Below, piece by piece: positions 42,235-56,906 of a stretch of 64,000 nt of DNA. The notes below the pieces were generated by a model that was not told the origin of the DNA, made no database searches, and saw nothing but the letters and a program-made list of their open reading frames with translations. The position numbers and the translations under genes are program-made. The first letter of the stretch is position 1, and each line of letters starts with the position of its first letter. The stretch comes from Bryobacteraceae bacterium (lineage in GTDB: Bacteria > Acidobacteriota > Terriglobia > Bryobacterales > Bryobacteraceae). The DNA is taken from positions 691,757 through 755,756 of the forward strand of contig JANWVY010000001.1 in assembly GCA_025056455.1 (NCBI GenBank), given 5' to 3'.

Positions 42235-42357
42235 TCGAGGTCCAGAAAGAGCTTGTTTTGGATTGGACTCGTTTGTCTTCACTTCGGGTTTGCGCCAGCT
42301 TCCGTCCTCATTATGAATTCTTCATTTATATAATTGAGGCAGAGGTTGGCAGTTGGT
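42235..42357. other. Intergenic region with AT-rich promoter
   Basis: Contains TATAAT at 42329-42334, 23 bases before the ATG at 42358, with AGAGG in between as a weak ribosome binding site. This is an ordinary leadered promoter, in contrast to the leaderless ones elsewhere. Confidence 0.4.
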
Positions 42358-45300
42358 ATGCACCCAGTCCTGGCCGGTTTCTTGTTTCTCTTCCTCTATT
42401 TAAATTCACTGTCAGCCAGTCCCATCGAGTTCAACCGCGACGTCCGCCCGATTCTTTCGGACAAATGCTTTGGATGCCACGGCCCGGACGCCAAGGCCAA
42501 GAATATCCCCCTCCGTCTGGATGTGGAATCGGAAGCCAAGAGGGACTTAGGCGGCCGTTTCGCCATTGTCGAGGGTGACCCCGCGCGCAGCGAAGTCATT
42601 CGTCGCATCACGACGGAAAAAAAGGCGTTGCGAATGCCTCCATTCACCTCCGGGCACACGCTTAGCGAGAAAGAAATCGAGGTTCTTCGCCAGTGGATTG
42701 CGCAAGGAGCCAAGTGGCAAAAGCACTGGGCTTTCATCCCGCCTGTACGGCCTCCGCTGCCCGGAGTTCAGAACCGCCAGTGGGTGCGCAATCCGATTGA
42801 CTCCTTCATCTTGGCGCGGCTGGAAAAGGAAGGACTGAAACCCTCCCCGCAGGCGTCGAAGGAAACCCTGGCCCGGCGTGTCAGTTTCGACCTCACCGGT
42901 TTGCCGCCCGCGCCGGCCGAGCTCGACGCCTTCCTCAAGGATTCGTCCCCTAACGCCTACGAAAAATTCGTGGACCGGCTCCTGGCCTCGCCTCGCTATG
43001 GGGAGCGCATGGCCATTCGCTGGCTGGATGCCGCGCGCTATGCCGACACCAATGGGTACCAGTTTGATGGCGAGCGAGTGATGTGGCGCTGGCGAGACTA
43101 TGTAATTGACAGCTTCAACCGGAATAAACCCTACGACCAGTTTCTCATCGAACAGATCGCCGGCGACTTGTTGCCAGGCGCAACGCTGGAGCAGAAGATC
43201 GCCACCGGTTTTAATCGCAATCATCGCGCCAACACCGAGGATGGAATTATTCCTGAAGAGTTTGCCGTGGAATATGTCGTTGACCGTGTCGAAACGGCTT
43301 CCACCGTTTTTCTCGGGCTGACGGCGGGTTGCGCTCGCTGCCACAATCACAAATACGATCCCCTCACTCAGAAGGAGTTCTATCAGCTCTACAGTTATTT
43401 CGGTAACGTTCCCGAGTATGGCCGCGCCATCAAGTACGGCAATTCCCCGCCCTTGATCCCAGCCCCAACGGCTGAGCAACAGGATCAGCTGCGCCAGCTC
43501 GAACAGCGGATTCGCCGCCTCGAATCCGCGCTCGAGGCCCAGCGTTCGGCAATCGACCACGCACAGCGGCTTTGGGAACGAGCGCTCCACCACAGCCCCG
43601 CCCTGCGCTGGACGCCCCAACTGCTGCGCCAAGCCTCCTATGACTTCGATGGCGCCCTGCCACCCCATAGCGGACCGGTCAATCTAGCGCCAGGAAAATT
43701 CGGGCAAGCCGCACAGCTGAACGGTTCCGCCTACTTTGAAATCCCATCGGTCGCGCAATTCGATATCGACGACCGTTTTTCCATTGCGGCTTGGGTGAAC
43801 GCCGGCTGTGATTCCTGCTCCATCTGGAGCCGCATGAATGACTCGCCACAAGGGAAGGGCTTTGGTCTTCACCTTCAGGACGGCAAACTGTTTGTCACCA
43901 TGACCAACGTTTGGGCCGACGATGCGACGCGGTTTATCGCGGTGGAAGATTTCCCTCGCGGCCGCTGGGTGCATGTCGCCGTCACTTACACCGGCTCCAA
44001 GATGGCTGAGGGCTGGAAGTTGTATGTGCAAGGTAAGCCCGTGGAAGTCAAGGTCCTTCAGGATACGCTCTACCGCCCCTTCCGCAACGCGGGATCCAAG
44101 TTCAACCTTCCCTTCCGGATCGGTGCTGGCAATGGCCCCGAACAGCGTTTTCAAGGCCAGATCGACGACCTGCACATCTTCACGCGAGTGCTAGAGCCAG
44201 ACGAGATCGAATCGCTGGCCTTGGGCAACACCTTGAACGAAATCGCTGCCAAGCCGCGCGCGCAGCGCTCTCTGGCCGAACAGCGGCAACTAGATTGGTT
44301 TTTCCTGGATCAAGCCGCACCAGAGCCTGTTCGCCAGATTTGGAGCCAGGTGATATCGCTGCGCGAAGAGCGGGAAGCTCTCGAGCGCAGCTTCCCCACG
44401 GTCATGATCATGGCCGAATGCAACCCGCGGAAGCCGACGCATATCCTCATCCGCGGACAGTACGATAAGCCAGGCGAGCTGGTCGAGCCTGGCGTGCCCG
44501 AGGCGCTGCCTCCGCTCCCGCCCGGAGCGCCCAACAACCGCCTCGGCCTGGCGCAATGGATGGTGGATCCCAACCACCCCCTGACGGCTCGCGTCGCGGT
44601 CAACCGCTTCTGGCAATCGGTGTTTGGAACCGGAATCGTAAAAACGGCGGAGGATTTCGGTTTGCAGGGCGAATGGCCCTCCCACCCCGAGCTGCTTGAC
44701 TGGCTAGCTAGAGAGTTTGTCGACTCGGGTTGGAACATCAAAGCCCTGATGAAGTTAATCGTCACCAGCGCCACCTACCAGCAAAGCTCCGCGGCAACAG
44801 CCGAGCTGGTCGCCCGCGATCCCGAAAACCGCCTTCTCGCCCGCGGTCCTCGCGTGCGCTTGCCAGCGGAAATGATTCGCGACGGCGCCCTTTTCGCCGC
44901 CGGCCTGTTGAGCACAAAACTAGGTGGCCCCTCCGTAAAACCCTATCAGCCAGACGGCCTGTGGCAAGAACTGGTCATGCAAGACATGTACTATGTGCAG
45001 AGCAAGGGCGAGGATCTTTACCGGCGGAGTCTCTATACCTTCTGGAAGCGAACCATTGCCCCGCCGATGATGGCGAATTTCGATTCCGCTTTGCGCGAAA
45101 GCTGCACCGTGCGCGAAAACCGTACCAATACGCCGCTACAAGCCCTGAATCTGATGAATGACGTCACGTTCCTTGAAGCGGCGCGTTTTCTTGGACAGCG
45201 CATGCTGCGCGAAGCGCCCAACGACGTCGATGCCCGCCTCGCCTACGGCTTCCGGTTGATTCTGGCCAGGAGCCCGACCCAAGCCGAACAAAGAATCCTG

Positions 45301-45477
45301 CGCGAGAACTTGCAATTTCACCGGGACTATTTTGCCAGTCATCCAGAGCGGGCGAAGGCGTACCTGGCGCAGGGAGACTCGCCTTCAGACCCCCGGCTTG
45401 ATCCCGCCGAGCTAGCGGCCTATGCCTCGGTGGCCAGCCTGATGCTGAATCTCGACGAAGCGATTACCAAGGAGTGA
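42358..45477 (+). CDS. PSD1-type cytochrome c domain protein (DUF1549/DUF1553, LamG)
   Basis: A 1039-residue exported protein with signal peptide 1-21. Residues about 22-105 are a planctomycete-type cytochrome c (CFGCH at 37-41, MPP as axial ligand). DUF1549 (PSCyt2) follows, about 125-340, with DSFILARLE and DLTGLPP. About 440-620 is a LamG/concanavalin-like domain (DIDDRFSIAAWV, GQIDDLHIF). DUF1553 occupies about 700-985, with NRFWQSVFGTGIV and ENRTNTPLQALNLMND. This architecture is typical of PVC bacteria and Solibacteres and always precedes a DUF1501 gene. It may bind or oxidise polysaccharides or sulfated compounds outside the cytoplasm; activity is unproven. Confidence 0.92.
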   Translation: MHPVLAGFLFLFLYLNSLSASPIEFNRDVRPILSDKCFGCHGPDAKAKNIPLRLDVESEAKRDLGGRFAIVEGDPARSEVIRRITTEKKALRMPPFTSGHTLSEKEIEVLRQWIAQGAKWQKHWAFIPPVRPPLPGVQNRQWVRNPIDSFILARLEKEGLKPSPQASKETLARRVSFDLTGLPPAPAELDAFLKDSSPNAYEKFVDRLLASPRYGERMAIRWLDAARYADTNGYQFDGERVMWRWRDYVIDSFNRNKPYDQFLIEQIAGDLLPGATLEQKIATGFNRNHRANTEDGIIPEEFAVEYVVDRVETASTVFLGLTAGCARCHNHKYDPLTQKEFYQLYSYFGNVPEYGRAIKYGNSPPLIPAPTAEQQDQLRQLEQRIRRLESALEAQRSAIDHAQRLWERALHHSPALRWTPQLLRQASYDFDGALPPHSGPVNLAPGKFGQAAQLNGSAYFEIPSVAQFDIDDRFSIAAWVNAGCDSCSIWSRMNDSPQGKGFGLHLQDGKLFVTMTNVWADDATRFIAVEDFPRGRWVHVAVTYTGSKMAEGWKLYVQGKPVEVKVLQDTLYRPFRNAGSKFNLPFRIGAGNGPEQRFQGQIDDLHIFTRVLEPDEIESLALGNTLNEIAAKPRAQRSLAEQRQLDWFFLDQAAPEPVRQIWSQVISLREEREALERSFPTVMIMAECNPRKPTHILIRGQYDKPGELVEPGVPEALPPLPPGAPNNRLGLAQWMVDPNHPLTARVAVNRFWQSVFGTGIVKTAEDFGLQGEWPSHPELLDWLAREFVDSGWNIKALMKLIVTSATYQQSSAATAELVARDPENRLLARGPRVRLPAEMIRDGALFAAGLLSTKLGGPSVKPYQPDGLWQELVMQDMYYVQSKGEDLYRRSLYTFWKRTIAPPMMANFDSALRESCTVRENRTNTPLQALNLMNDVTFLEAARFLGQRMLREAPNDVDARLAYGFRLILARSPTQAEQRILRENLQFHRDYFASHPERAKAYLAQGDSPSDPRLDPAELAAYASVASLMLNLDEAITKE

Positions 45478-45480
45478 ACC

Positions 45481-46917
45481 ATGCATCCGTGCGAGGAACG
45501 TCAGCTTCTTCTGACCAGGCGTCACTTCTTCTCCCGCTCCACGTTAGGTCTTGGCACGGCGGCGTTGGGCTCACTGCTTGCCCGGGATCGTCTGGGCGCT
45601 AGTAGCGCCCTGCCGGGACTTCCCCACCACCCGCCCAAGGCCAAGCGAGTCATCTACCTCTTTCAGCACGGCGGCCCGTCCCAGCTCGACTTGTTTGACT
45701 ACAAGCCGGGATTGGCCAAGTTTCGCGGCCAAAACCTTCCCGAGAGCATCCGCATGGGCCAACGCCTCACGGGGATGACGGCCTATCAGGCCTCTTTTCC
45801 CACGGCTCCCTCGCTGTTCCGCTTCTCACAACACGGGAAATGCGGCATGTGGCTAAGCGAATTGTTGCCACACACCGCTCGCCTGGCCGACGAGATCTGC
45901 CTCATTAAATCGCTTCACACCGAAGCCATTAACCATGATCCTGCGGTGACCTTCTTTCAAACTGGCTTTCAACTGGCTGGAAGGCCTAGCATCGGATCCT
46001 GGATCAGCTATGGATTAGGCTCTCTGAGCGAGGATCTGCCCGCGTTTGTCGTCCTGGTGTCGCAAGGCCGGGGAGGCTCGCAGGCTCTGGCAGACCGGCA
46101 GTGGTCATCTGGCTTCCTCCCCTCGAAGTACGCAGGCGTGAAATTTCGCGCCGGGGCCGACCCCGTGCTCTATCTCTCCAACCCCGACGGCTACGATACC
46201 AGTGCGCGCAGACGTTTTCTGGATGATCTCGCTAAGCTCAACGAGTTAAAACTCGCGCAAACGCAAGATCCCGAAATTGCCACCCGCATCGCCCAGTATG
46301 AAATGGCCTTCCGGATGCAACGCTCAGTGCCCGAGCTGACCGATCTCTCCAAAGAGCCAGAGCGAACTTTTGAACTCTACGGGCCAGATTCCCGCAAGCC
46401 CGGCACCTATGCGGCCAATTGCATCCTAGCCCGCCGGCTGGCGGAACGGGGCGTGCGCTTCATCCAGCTCTTCCATCGCGGCTGGGACCAGCACAACAAT
46501 TTGCCCCGCGAAATTCGCTGGCAGTGTGAACAAACGGATCAGCCTACAGCGGCCCTTCTCCAGGACCTCAAAGAACGCGGACTGCTCGAAGATACCGTCG
46601 TTGTCTGGGGTGGGGAATTCGGCCGCACGGTTTACTCGCAAGGAACCCTTACCGAACAGAACTACGGGCGCGACCATCACCCGCGCTGTTTCGCCATGTG
46701 GGTGGCAGGAGGCGGCTTCCGCGGCGGCTTGACCTACGGCGAAACGGACGATTTCTCCTATAACATCATCCAGGACCCCATGGACGTCCACGATTTGCAC
46801 GCCACTTTATTGCACGTCTTAGGCATTGACCACTTGCGGCTCACTTTTAAATTCCAAGGCCGGCACTACCGCCTGACCGATATTCACGGCCGTATCATCC
46901 GGCCTCTGCTCACCTAA
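45481..46917 (+). CDS. Tat-exported DUF1501 protein
   Basis: A 478-residue protein starting three bases after the PSD1 stop. Residues 12-35 form a twin-arginine signal (TRRHFFSRS). The body is an alkaline phosphatase/sulfatase-like fold, with [19 protein letters not shown] near 60-78 and WGGEFGRT and DHHPRCF near 380-405 as the likely metal site. PSD1-DUF1501 pairs are duplicated many times in Planctomycetes and Solibacteres. Its substrate is unknown; the pairing suggests a periplasmic redox-hydrolase system. Confidence 0.92.
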
Positions 46918-49181: not shown

Positions 49182-50609
49182 ATGTCTCCGCGAAAAAAAA
49201 GCTTAGTTCCGTTATTCGGCGTGGCCTTCATCGTGGCCATCGTTTCCACGGGAATTTTTTATGGTCTATTTGTCGCCCGCCTGGACTCGGCAACCGCTAC
49301 CAAACCCCAAGCCTCGGTACTCGTTGCCGCCCGGGCCCTCCCCGCAGGAACCGAGCTGAAGTCTGGAGATCTTCAAGAGCTGGCTTTGGCCTCTGCTGTG
49401 CGTCCAGCGGGCGCAGCACAGTGGTCGGAAGCCCTGGGGAAAGTGCTCGTCCTTCCCTTGGCGGAAAAAGAGCTCGTCACCCACTCGCACCTCGGCCAGC
49501 GCGATGGCGGCTCTCGGGAGTCCGGAGGCCTGGGAATCCCAGAAGGAATGCGGGCTGTCTCGGTCCAGGTTCAGGATTCGGCGGGCGTGGTCGCTATGCT
49601 GAAACCCGGCTACAAGGTGGATGTGCAGATTGTGGCCTCTGTCAACACCGGACAGTATCACGAACCGCACATCCGCACTGTTCTCGAGAACATGCAAGTG
49701 TTGACCATACCTTCGGAAACCCATAACGGCCGAGGCGCACAGGTTTTGACTTTGCTTGCCAACCCGCGCGAAGCCGCCATCCTCGGGCTGGCGGATTCAA
49801 CCGCCAAGGTCCGCATCGTTCTCCGCAATCCGATCGACCAGAAGCGGGATAACCTCACAGCCGTGGGCCTGACCTCGGTGTTTAAGCCTGGGCTGAGCAT
49901 CCCCTCCGGCGCACCCGTTGTACTCACTCCGCCTTCTGCTGTGGCCCCAGCCTCGGCCCTGACAAGCCCGTCGACTAGCGCACCTTCTTCTCAGCTGGAA
50001 CAGGCGCCAAAATCGGTCAGCTTCAGTGCTCCGGGTTCTTGGTCCGATCTCCCAGCCCGCCCCCCGCTCTCTTCGGATGTTCAGCTTTGGGTGCGGCTAG
50101 CAGGAATTAGCACACAAGCGGAGCGCGAGCTGCGTTCGAAGCTCGCCGACCCCGCTGAGCCTCTCTCCGAGAGCATGCAAGTAGCCGCTCTCCGGCCAGA
50201 TGGCAGCCTAGAGGAGGCATGGAAAAAGTGGGAGAGCGAGAAAGCGGTCGAAACGCTTGCCTCATCCCGTTTGCTCCTGGGCCCCAAAACTAGCGCCGGC
50301 GCGCAGTGGAGCCTGCAAGATGACCGCTATGGGCTCCGCGTACAGTTTGCTTCCCAGCCCCATTCCGGCACGCGGCTGCGTTTGCGCGTTCACCCTGAAG
50401 TAACCTACCCCAACCAAAATAGCGTCACCACGCGGCGGATCGAAACCGAAATTGAGGTGAGCAACGGTCAGAGCTTCCTGGTAAAAGGATTCGCCTCTCA
50501 GAACGAAACACAATCCCTGTGGGAAAGACTGTTTCCAGCGCGCTTCTCTACGCAAGGCCACCGCGAATTGATTCTCTTGGTGACCCCCAAACTGGCTCCG
50601 AGGGTCTGA
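49182..50609 (+). CDS. cpaB: CpaB/RcpC pilus protein fused to a secretin-like C-terminus
   Basis: A 475-residue protein. One membrane helix (8-30) is followed by a SAF domain (about 45-107, with ALPAGTELKSGDL), the RcpC/CpaB domain (122-218, GMRAVSVQV, LKPGYKVDV), a Pro/Ser linker (245-295), and a C-terminal part (298-475) that resembles the outer-membrane secretin core: RLRVHPEVTYP, RRIETEIEVSNGQSFLVKGF and RELILLVTPKL. The usual CpaB ends near residue 260. No separate cpaC gene is nearby, so this fusion might supply both periplasmic and outer-membrane parts of the Tad machine. tadB follows five bases later. Confidence 0.8.
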   Translation: MSPRKKSLVPLFGVAFIVAIVSTGIFYGLFVARLDSATATKPQASVLVAARALPAGTELKSGDLQELALASAVRPAGAAQWSEALGKVLVLPLAEKELVTHSHLGQRDGGSRESGGLGIPEGMRAVSVQVQDSAGVVAMLKPGYKVDVQIVASVNTGQYHEPHIRTVLENMQVLTIPSETHNGRGAQVLTLLANPREAAILGLADSTAKVRIVLRNPIDQKRDNLTAVGLTSVFKPGLSIPSGAPVVLTPPSAVAPASALTSPSTSAPSSQLEQAPKSVSFSAPGSWSDLPARPPLSSDVQLWVRLAGISTQAERELRSKLADPAEPLSESMQVAALRPDGSLEEAWKKWESEKAVETLASSRLLLGPKTSAGAQWSLQDDRYGLRVQFASQPHSGTRLRLRVHPEVTYPNQNSVTTRRIETEIEVSNGQSFLVKGFASQNETQSLWERLFPARFSTQGHRELILLVTPKLAPRV

Positions 50610-50613
50610 GCCT

Positions 50614-51576
50614 ATGCCGCTCGCCGTTGTCACGGTTTTCGTCGCCACGTTCCTGCTGGCAGCGCTTGCAGTGTGGGTTGCGCGCCTCCTTCAGGATCGC
50701 CGGCGGCCTGGCGTCTCGAGTGGTTCCCCGCAGTCTCTAATTCCGCACGAGGAAGAAGAGTCCTTAATCTCCGAAGAAGCGGAGCTCAGCACGATTGCCG
50801 CCGTCAACTGGTTGCTCAGCAAGCTGGACTTTGTCGAGGCAATTCAAAACAAGCTCGAGCAAGCTGACCTCAACTGGTCCGTGGGCCGGGTGTTCGCGGC
50901 AATGTTGCTGAGTGGTGCCCTTAGCATGTCGCTACTCGGTCTCCTGCCCTTCATTTCCACGTGGGGGCAGCTCGCCATCTCGGCATTCGCGGCCTTGCTG
51001 CCCTACTTCTACATCGCCAGCCGGCGGAACCAACGGCTTCGAAAAATTGAAGAACAGTTCCCCGAGGCGATGGAATCGGTGGCTAGAGCCATGCGTGCGG
51101 GCTACGCTTTCGCCGGGGCGCTCGAAAACGTCACCCGGCATGCCCGACCCCCGCTCCGCAAAGAGCTGGTGCGCGTCGTCAACGAAACCTCGCTCGGACT
51201 TCCCTTAGAACAGGCGCTGCTTGGTCTGGCTGAACGGCTCCCCATCCAAGAAGTCCACCTCTTCGTCGCTGCGGTCCAGGTTCAAAGCCGCGCAGGAGGC
51301 GACCTCAGCGAGGTGCTGGAAAAATTTGCCGAAAACATGCGAGAAGCCGCTGCCTTACGGGGCGAAGTTCGCTCGCTCTCCTCGCAAGGCCGATTCGCCG
51401 GTTACATCCTAACCGCGCTGCCCATCGCCATTGGTCTGGCGATGTTCGTCGTGGCTCCGGATTTTATGCGGCCACTCTTTGAAGAAGAAATTGGCCGGAC
51501 TCTGCTGATGTGTGCAGCTGGCGGTCTCGTTGCCGCGCACTTGATCATTCGCAAGCTGGTCGACATCCGCCTATGA
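50614..51576 (+). CDS. tadB: Tad pilus inner-membrane protein TadB
   Basis: A 320-residue inner-membrane assembly protein. Transmembrane helices lie at about 2-24, 92-130 and 265-315. The type II secretion F domain (about 140-290) has QFPEAMESVARAMRAGYAFAGALENV and QVQSRAGGDLSEVLEKFAENMREAAALRGEVRSLSSQGR, both typical of TadB. It overlaps tadC by four bases (ATGA), and with cpaB gives the core of a type IVc pilus assembly set. The ATPase gene (tadA/cpaF) is not here. Confidence 0.9.
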   Translation: MPLAVVTVFVATFLLAALAVWVARLLQDRRRPGVSSGSPQSLIPHEEEESLISEEAELSTIAAVNWLLSKLDFVEAIQNKLEQADLNWSVGRVFAAMLLSGALSMSLLGLLPFISTWGQLAISAFAALLPYFYIASRRNQRLRKIEEQFPEAMESVARAMRAGYAFAGALENVTRHARPPLRKELVRVVNETSLGLPLEQALLGLAERLPIQEVHLFVAAVQVQSRAGGDLSEVLEKFAENMREAAALRGEVRSLSSQGRFAGYILTALPIAIGLAMFVVAPDFMRPLFEEEIGRTLLMCAAGGLVAAHLIIRKLVDIRL

Positions 51577-52487
51577 CCGGAACCACTCTGCTGCTGGCTG
51601 GATTCTTCTTCTCAGTGCTCGGCGCAGTGTGCGCCTTGGGCTACTGGTGGACGCGGCGGCAAGCAGCTATGCAACAGCTGAGCAGCTTGGCGCCCGTCCT
51701 CGAGGATCTGTCGCCGGAGCTGTCGCTGCGGGCTTCCCTGCTCGGTTTACTTTCTTGGCTTGGCGAATGGATGCCCTCAAGCCCAGCCAGCCGCGCCGCG
51801 CTCCAGAAGCGGTTGCGATATGCCGGCTATCGTGCTCCCTCGGCTCACAAGCTCTACTTCGGCCTAAAGTGTGCTTCTGCTCTGCTGCTCGGTCTGATCC
51901 TCGCCATCCTGGCCGTCATTTTCAACGACGGGGCGTGGTTCTCGGCCCTCGTCTGCGGATTGGGTCTTGGCTTTCTCATTCCGGAGCGCGTTCTGAACGC
52001 TTTGATCCAGGCGCGAAGCGAGCGCCTGCGGCGTGCCCTGCCCCCTGCACTCGATCTCATGGTCATGAGTTTGGAAGGCGGCCAGTCCCTTGACCAGGCG
52101 TTACTGGCCGCAAGCCGGGGAATTCGAACTCTCCTGCCGGACCTGGCCGAGGAGTTCATGCAAACTCACCTGGAAGCCCGGCTCGCCGGAGGCCGCGCCG
52201 AGGCCATCCAGAACATGGCCGAACGCAATTGCGAGCCCGAACTCCAGAAGCTCTGCCAGTTGATGATTGACGCGGATCGCTTCGGATCCAGCCTGGCGCC
52301 CACCTTGCGGCAACACTCGAAGTTCCTGCGCATCCGCTTCCGCCAAAAAGCCCAGGAATCGGCCCGTAAGTTGACGGTGAAGCTTGTCTTCCCGTTGTTC
52401 TTTCTGATCTTTCCGGCCATCCTCGTAGTGACCCTCGGCCCCGCTGTACTCGCCTTCCGGAAGTTTTTTGCCTCGGGTGGCTTCTAG
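51573..52487 (+). CDS. tadC: Tad pilus inner-membrane protein TadC
   Basis: A 304-residue membrane protein starting at the ATG at 51573, coupled to tadB by a four-base overlap. Helices lie at about 3-24, 90-130 and 270-300, with the T2SSF domain between: ALDLMVMSLEGGQSLDQALLAA and QLMIDADRFGSSLAPTLRQHSKFLRIRFRQKAQE. It works with TadB as the inner-membrane platform. It is the last Tad gene of this short group. Confidence 0.9.
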   Translation: MTGTTLLLAGFFFSVLGAVCALGYWWTRRQAAMQQLSSLAPVLEDLSPELSLRASLLGLLSWLGEWMPSSPASRAALQKRLRYAGYRAPSAHKLYFGLKCASALLLGLILAILAVIFNDGAWFSALVCGLGLGFLIPERVLNALIQARSERLRRALPPALDLMVMSLEGGQSLDQALLAASRGIRTLLPDLAEEFMQTHLEARLAGGRAEAIQNMAERNCEPELQKLCQLMIDADRFGSSLAPTLRQHSKFLRIRFRQKAQESARKLTVKLVFPLFFLIFPAILVVTLGPAVLAFRKFFASGGF

Positions 52488-55168: not shown

Positions 55169-56091
55169 AGATTCTCCATGTGGATGCCGGCAAGTCGATG
55201 CGTGGCGGCCAGTGGCAAACCTTTTACCTCGCGATGGGGCAGAAAACGCTCGGCTTGTCCCCCCTTCTGCTGGCTCCTGCGCGCTCGCCGCTCCTACGCT
55301 TGGCCCGGGAGCGCGGACTCGAATGCAAGCCACTGAGCTGGTTCACGCTCTGGCGGGAATCGCGGCGGCACGCCCTGACCCACGCCCATGACGCACGAAG
55401 CCACACCATGGCCGCCCTCGTTGCGCGCAGTCCGCTTGTCGTCACGCGCCGCGTCGCCTTTCCTATCGGCACTTCGTGTTGGTCGAAATGGAAATACCGT
55501 CGCGCGGCCCGCTATTTCGCCATCTCCCGCTTTGTCGCTGGAACCTTACAGGCCGCCGGTATCCCGGCCGAGCGCATTGCCCTCGTTTATGACGGCGTGC
55601 CCTTGGAGCAGCGGGCGCCCGGAGGCCGTAAGTTTGTTGCGCCCCGCTGGCAGGACAGCCGCAAAGCCACCCAGCTGGCCCGGCAGGCGGCGCACGCCGC
55701 TGGCGTCGAGCTGATCGAATCGGATCAGCTTCTCAAGGATTTACAACAGGCCCGCGCGCTGATCTACCTCTCCGAAGTGGAGGGCTTGGGCTCAGCTGCC
55801 TTGCTCGCTCTGGGCGCCGGAATACCCGTCATTGCAAGCCGTGCGGGCGGACTGCCAGAAATCGTTCGCCATGAGCAGACAGGGCTGCTCGTTTCCAACG
55901 AACTCGATAGCGTGGTCCGCGCCATCCGCCGGCTTGATTGCGATGAGGCCCTCGCCCGGCGCCTCGGATCACAAGGTCGCGAAATGGTCAAAAATGGTTT
56001 CACCCTCGCCCATATGGCTCTGCGCTCCGTCCACGAATACCAAAAACTGATGGCGCCAGCGAGCGCCTCGAAGGAGGGCTCGCCGCAATGA
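55165..56091 (+). CDS. Short GT4-family glycosyltransferase
   Basis: A 308-residue GT-B glycosyltransferase. The N-terminal KILHVDAGKSMRGGQWQ start and the C-terminal SEVEGLGSAALLALGAGIPVIASRAGGLPEIV motif mark the GT4 donor site. The protein is shorter than usual (about 350-400) and the middle segment that normally holds the GRL...KG strand of the C-terminal fold is nearly absent. It may be a specialised or reduced enzyme. Overlaps the prepilin peptidase gene by four bases. Confidence 0.8.
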   Translation: MKILHVDAGKSMRGGQWQTFYLAMGQKTLGLSPLLLAPARSPLLRLARERGLECKPLSWFTLWRESRRHALTHAHDARSHTMAALVARSPLVVTRRVAFPIGTSCWSKWKYRRAARYFAISRFVAGTLQAAGIPAERIALVYDGVPLEQRAPGGRKFVAPRWQDSRKATQLARQAAHAAGVELIESDQLLKDLQQARALIYLSEVEGLGSAALLALGAGIPVIASRAGGLPEIVRHEQTGLLVSNELDSVVRAIRRLDCDEALARRLGSQGREMVKNGFTLAHMALRSVHEYQKLMAPASASKEGSPQ

Positions 56092-56906
56092 TCGAGGCCG
56101 TCCTCGCGGGCTTGCTCGGACTTCTCGTCGGCAGCTTTCTAAATGTCTGCATCTACCGCCTGCCACGGGATTTGTCGGTGGTCCGGCCGCGCTCGCATTG
56201 CCCTAGCTGCCAGCGCACGATCGCCTGGTATGACAATGTTCCCATCGCAAGTTACCTCTGGCTGGGCGGCAAATGCAGGTGGTGTCGCACACCTTACTCG
56301 ATTAGTTATCCCCTGGTAGAGTTTTTCACTGGTGTTTCGTTCTTTTTTAGCGTCTTGAGTAAAGGCTGGAATCCGCTCGGCTGGAAGCTCTGCGTCTTGA
56401 GCGCCATCCTCATTGACCTCATCGTGACAGATCTGTTCGATCGTATCTTGCCCGATGAATTCACCCTCGGCGGCTTTCTCATGGCGCTGGTATTTGCGCC
56501 TTTCACCCCTCCACCTTCGCAATTTTCAACGCTGTTTCTACCTCCAACACTCGCCACCTGGATCCATTCGCTTGCCGAGGCTTTACTTGGCGGATTGATT
56601 TCGGCCACCTTGCTCTGGCTCACCGGCGAGGTTTATCTCCGCATCCGCAAGCGCGAAGGATTGGGCTTAGGCGATGTCAAGATGATGCTCGTTGTCGGGG
56701 GATTTCTTGGCCTGCCCGGCGCACTGATGACCGTTTTCGCGGGCTCGCTTCTCGGCGCAATTCTCGGCGGGCTCTATATGCTGGTTACCAAAAAAGGTCA
56801 ACTTTACGAGTTGCCGTTTGGTACTTTTCTCGGAACCGCTGCGCTGGGGATTGCGCTGTTTGGCGAATACGTCCTTTCCTGGTATCTCGATCTGCTCACT
56901 TCCTAG
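56088..56906 (+). CDS. Prepilin peptidase (A24), PilD type
   Basis: A 272-residue membrane aspartic protease and N-methyltransferase. The N-terminal cytoplasmic domain has two CxxC pairs (CPSC near 37 and CRWC near 63) and the methylation domain; the catalytic aspartates are in DRILPDEF near 125 and GLGDVKMM near 198. Eight or so helices follow the usual A24 pattern. It could process pilins for the Tad set at 49182-52487, although Tad clusters often carry a shorter TadV-type enzyme. Confidence 0.9.
   Translation: MIEAVLAGLLGLLVGSFLNVCIYRLPRDLSVVRPRSHCPSCQRTIAWYDNVPIASYLWLGGKCRWCRTPYSISYPLVEFFTGVSFFFSVLSKGWNPLGWKLCVLSAILIDLIVTDLFDRILPDEFTLGGFLMALVFAPFTPPPSQFSTLFLPPTLATWIHSLAEALLGGLISATLLWLTGEVYLRIRKREGLGLGDVKMMLVVGGFLGLPGALMTVFAGSLLGAILGGLYMLVTKKGQLYELPFGTFLGTAALGIALFGEYVLSWYLDLLTS

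Follow-up and report, generated by a model that had tools for sequence, protein, structure and literature searches.

The closest described relatives of the protein considered here are two components of the Tad (type IVc) pilus system, CpaB/RcpC and the secretin CpaC/RcpA. CpaB/RcpC forms a dodecameric ring around the pilus, and the usual gene order is cpaB-cpaC. RcpC comprises an N-terminal anchor helix, a SAF domain (D1), and an RcpC domain (D2), in this order, and ends with a C-terminal β-hairpin intended for the secretin N-domain; its gene lies ahead of those for other Tad components (PMC12307814). In a model of the Pseudomonas aeruginosa proteins, the sheet of the RcpA N-domain is completed by the RcpC hairpin; Tad function in vivo depends on this hairpin, although RcpC devoid of it still co-purified with the RcpA N-domain (PMC12307814). 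The secretin partner bears N-terminal domains (T2SS-T3SS_pil_N and BON), a secretin-domain core, and Gate 1, whose tip in RcpA is formed by residues 242–255 (PMC10499894). The inner lip of RcpA is a coil-turn-coil. A literature search weighted toward open-access sources, with most subscription journals outside its scope, returned no paper on a fusion of CpaB with a secretin.

In the window (the whole 64-kb stretch of DNA analysed), the two partners are joined in a single polypeptide. An intact open reading frame at 49182–50609 on the forward strand, which also carries all other features located below by window coordinates, encodes a protein of 475 amino acids designated here CpaB3. It combines the alignment-ring subunit CpaB/RcpC from a Tad (type IVc) pilus cluster with a pared-down CpaC-type secretin core, the latter being under selection. 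A frameshift or an assembly artefact can be ruled out, as the fused frame stays open in more than 20 separate assemblies. By direct reading of its sequence, the protein has a basic start followed by a hydrophobic helix (residues 8–31; 49203–49274), which is expected to serve as an inner-membrane anchor like that of RcpC (PMC12307814). Then come the SAF domain (residues 46–104; 49317–49493; E = 1.7e-5) and the RcpC domain (residues 119–215; 49536–49826; E = 2.7e-16), both passing the Pfam curated cut-offs (25.7 bits against 21 and 59.9 bits against 28.8, respectively). The protein also scores well above the NCBIfam cut-off for CpaB (TIGR03177, 104.5 bits against 71), with the match ending at 220 of 262. 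The place of the canonical C-terminal β-hairpin is taken by a fast-evolving linker rich in Pro, Ser, and Ala (residues 216–296; 49827–50069), as judged from the alignment and dN/dS, and the rest of the protein is the reduced secretin core (residues 297–475; 50070–50606). The first-pass annotation had recognised the same succession of SAF and RcpC domains and a Pro/Ser linker, but its limits need correction: RcpC ends at about residue 215 rather than 218, and the linker runs to about 296, not 290.

The proposal of that annotation that CpaB is fused here to a secretin-like domain has been borne out, and the C-terminal domain (297–475) is homologous to the core of the Tad secretins CpaC/RcpA. When the whole protein is searched, the Pfam Secretin profile PF00263 matches residues 375–445 (50304–50516; profile positions 51–130) with E = 2.7e-5 and 24.3 bits, just below the cut-off of 27.5, whereas residues 297–475 taken alone give 28.1 bits and E = 1.8e-6, above the cut-off. 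Relatives were drawn from two collections, and 23 orthologous tails were aligned; 20 of them match Secretin by themselves (best E = 7e-10). A profile of the tail family recovers the Bryobacteraceae CpaC profile with a probability of 99.6 and E = 5e-24, at about 27% identity to CpaC. Chance resemblance is therefore excluded. The three motifs noticed in the first reading as following the secretin order align, in that order, with the matching parts of the organism’s own CpaC. Against PDB sequences, the top matches of the tail profile are the Acidithiobacillus caldus secretin (7e-12) and RcpA (2e-11). Among the five other secretins of the genome, the tail HMM scores the two CpaC proteins highest (66.5 and 61.7 bits), followed by a GspD-like protein (30 bits) and two others with lower scores. 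Outside any pilus cluster seen, the genome encodes two proteins that resemble secretins and have a TPR-like N-terminal part (973 and 562 amino acids; C11:798822-802340 and C25:273337-276822).

The tail is predicted to fold into a compact domain (pLDDT 90, pTM 0.87). In a structure search with this model, the highest-ranking matches over the full length of the tail are secretins (some 115 aligned residues at about 4 Å, Z of 8–9); PilQ, GspD, InvG, and phage pIV secretins share the fold family, but they are full gated outer-membrane pores and are more distant from the tail in sequence. The search also retrieved small β-barrels as weaker matches. These matches, the confident compact model, and the repeated loss of the tail during evolution (see below) would suit a secretin core turned to a new use, that of a free-standing β domain binding peptidoglycan, pilin, or a lipoprotein with no secretin ring involved. 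We regard this as quite unlikely, given that the small barrels score below the secretins and that the tail has remained attached to a protein known to partner a secretin. The compactness of the monomer model does not prove that the tail is unable to form a ring, since a real CpaC domain was predicted by AlphaFold with a pLDDT of only 58 versus 90 for the tail, the two underlying alignments differing in diversity.

What the tail has lost can be read from a joint alignment of its family with CpaC. The core common to both, as in RcpA/CpaC (PMC10499894), starts with the first strand and reaches the VTP motif. The tail has four gaps relative to CpaC: some 40 residues are missing ahead of ALxxFRPDLN, some 20 from the interval that separates the motifs GGEFPVP and FGIRL, some 10 past PEVS, and 11 ahead of IPILG. 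Of these gaps, the second spans the whole of Gate 1, the third should correspond to the inner lip, and the fourth removes part of the IPxLG loop. A short helix at this loop is kept in the tail model and may represent the membrane-contacting helix. In contrast to RcpA/CpaC, the tail is joined to an inner-membrane protein, and no cleaved signal peptide has been recognised for it; Pfam finds neither T2SS-T3SS_pil_N nor BON domains in the fusion protein, whereas both are present in the genome’s own CpaC proteins. On the CpaB side, both canonical CpaB proteins of the genome end, by eye, with a strand-turn-strand (VDQVVVIRGNQKTVETV and RAVVDVYKGDKHIQEIF), and no such hairpin is seen by eye either before or after the tail in the fusion protein. 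Thus, neither half of the fusion appears to retain its part of the noncovalent contact, the CpaB hairpin on one side and the CpaC N-domain on the other.

These losses bear on an earlier suggestion that a single polypeptide might link the periplasmic and outer-membrane parts of the pilus. The physical junction of CpaB with a secretin core is real; the case for a pore has become weaker. If the tail oligomerised into an ungated outer-membrane barrel, one polypeptide would span the inner membrane, the periplasm, and the outer membrane with no need for CpaC, and the retained core strands and the short helix near the end, the long flexible linker, and the lack of cpaC beside the cluster in all loci checked fit such a conduit. 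However, Gate 1, the lip-region loop, and the segment ahead of the core are deleted, along with the N-domains and part of the IPxLG loop; in type II secretion system (T2SS) secretins, it is chiefly the lip that spans the membrane (PMC6532946); no pilotin-binding tail has been recognised on the fusion protein; and strong separate secretin genes are carried elsewhere by all 29 relatives surveyed, the genome itself having two full CpaC proteins. A conduit of this kind is accordingly unlikely, and it is more doubtful still that one protein provides both the alignment ring and an ungated outer-membrane channel of this Tad machine, with no separate secretin used. A pared-down secretin core on a tether is more probable than a one-piece pore.

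The tail can hardly be regarded as a decaying leftover, one sense of the “regulatory remnant” that the first-pass annotation had kept in reserve. In 11 close ortholog pairs, dN/dS is 0.03–0.19 for the tail, 0.04–0.16 for the CpaB part, and 0.18–0.74 for the linker. Judged by these substitution ratios, the tail is evidently a selected domain, under purifying selection as strong as that acting on the CpaB part, and the linker behaves as a loose tether. Several independent losses and partial forms speak for a functionless remnant, but the tail dN/dS, no higher than in the CpaB part, largely refutes this explanation and makes it scarcely credible.

Among 297 genomes of the phylum sample, a full-length single-frame profile match occurs only in the genome that contains the window; in the others, the part matching CpaB and the part matching secretins fall in different frames that are often adjacent. 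In a sample of 150 genomes from the family, the match is full-length in about 20 and partial in a few others. On the tree of the CpaB part, long forms occupy several deep branches, and about six switches between the long and the short form are required. The simplest reading of this pattern would be an ancient fusion that was subsequently lost more than once, the count itself being unable to tell gain from loss. Since cpaB-tadB-tadC outlasted the tail on at least a few occasions, the tail is not essential to the cluster. In nearly all short forms, tadB begins within some tens of bases of the cpaB end, and no secretin piece or split secretin gene is left behind the short CpaB. In one locus (L041) the tail is absent, and in another (L047) it is strongly shortened and diverged, which may represent steps in domain loss. 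The fusion protein of a sequence titled Acidobacteriaceae (JADCJL010000080.1) nests within Bryobacteraceae/Sulfopaludibacter sequences, pointing to either transfer or a misnamed bin.

The gene neighbourhood is that of a Tad cluster, albeit an incomplete one. The fusion gene is placed ahead of Tad components, as rcpC is: tadB (50614–51576; T2SSF) directly follows it in every fusion locus checked and is succeeded by tadC (51573–52487; T2SSF), both assigned by Pfam and by comparison of loci. After tadC come genes for HU, an M50-like protease, and glycosyltransferases, named from sequence, and then, 3.6 kb further downstream, a prepilin peptidase (56088–56906; domain matches A24_N_bact and Peptidase_A24), a possible partner of the fusion cluster. 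On the other side of the cluster, the region 42334–46917 encodes a large cytochrome/LamG-like protein and then a DUF1501-like protein, likewise named from sequence only; this arrangement is common in planctomycetes and acidobacteria. Neither a CpaF ATPase nor an Flp pilin is encoded within the window. The remark that no cpaC gene is near has held: there is none in the window, and the nearest other secretin match on the contig lies about 45 kb beyond its end. In relatives, a dedicated secretin adjoining the cluster was not recognised in any of 21 loci, one of them being just a contig-end fragment.

The remaining Tad parts of the genome are dispersed. Two ordinary clusters, on contigs C24 and C27, each contain cpaB, cpaC, a CpaE-like gene, cpaF, tadB, and tadC. 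The first-pass annotation had also raised the prospect of a normal separate secretin elsewhere in the genome being paired with the fusion cluster. Two complete CpaC proteins do exist, but each belongs to its own cluster with its own CpaB, and neither is obviously dedicated to the fusion. An orphan CpaF-type ATPase of 449 amino acids (C22:795687-797033) has no tadB or tadC beside it and is surrounded by abhydrolase and ABC transporter genes; it is found at 74–89% identity in 65 of the 150 family genomes. This ATPase occurs in 15 of 20 long-form versus 4 of 14 short-form genomes (raw Fisher p = 0.013, with no support from tree-aware pairs), and many genomes possess an orphan-type CpaF without a detected fusion protein, so that its co-occurrence with the long form is only suggestive of partnership. 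Three Flp/Fap-like pilin matches stand in a row on another contig (C23:117809-118852) with no Tad genes nearby; the one checked scores 26.2 bits, under the Pfam cut-off of 32.2. The orphan CpaF and these Flp-like genes are possibly the missing ATPase and pilin of the fusion cluster. In locus L025, a small gene resembling the latter is situated some 2 kb away from a short-form cpaB.

How the tail might act together with a true secretin can be imagined in two ways. As a modified subunit, it could insert into or cap a CpaC multimer and recruit it to the assembly platform of the fusion, which would agree with its being closest to CpaC among the genome’s secretins and with the purifying selection; on the other hand, the gate and lip elements absent from the tail are supplied by the CpaC subunits. 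From the sequence comparisons at hand, such a mixed ring seems rather on the unlikely side. Our preferred reading, to which we give about an even chance, is that the tail is a covalently attached, pared-down secretin core that acts in the periplasm, as the collar or docking piece of a Tad machine with dispersed genes, rather than as an outer-membrane pore. The gene would have arisen through fusion of cpaB with cpaC, the next gene downstream, the linker replacing the noncovalent contact between the CpaB C-terminal hairpin and the CpaC N-domain. The tail would then have shed several insertions, among them Gate 1 and the lip-region loop, and having lost them it presumably no longer makes an outer-membrane pore of its own. 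Most likely, it would form a periplasmic, presumably soluble collar above the CpaB ring, which would dock to a separate full CpaC ring from one of the other clusters or lie stacked below it. In this way, a dispersed Tad machine (cpaB-tadB-tadC and, possibly, the orphan cpaF and flp genes on other contigs) may be coupled through the fusion to an outer-membrane channel.

It was not until 2025 that a contact of the Tad alignment ring with the secretin was described. A natural fusion of both partners, from which the apparent contact-making parts have gone, lends support to this interface and provides a covalently linked form of it for study. Moreover, a secretin core stripped of its gate and, apparently, its lip has nevertheless been kept by selection in these bacteria, and hence an annotated secretin match need not mean a pore.
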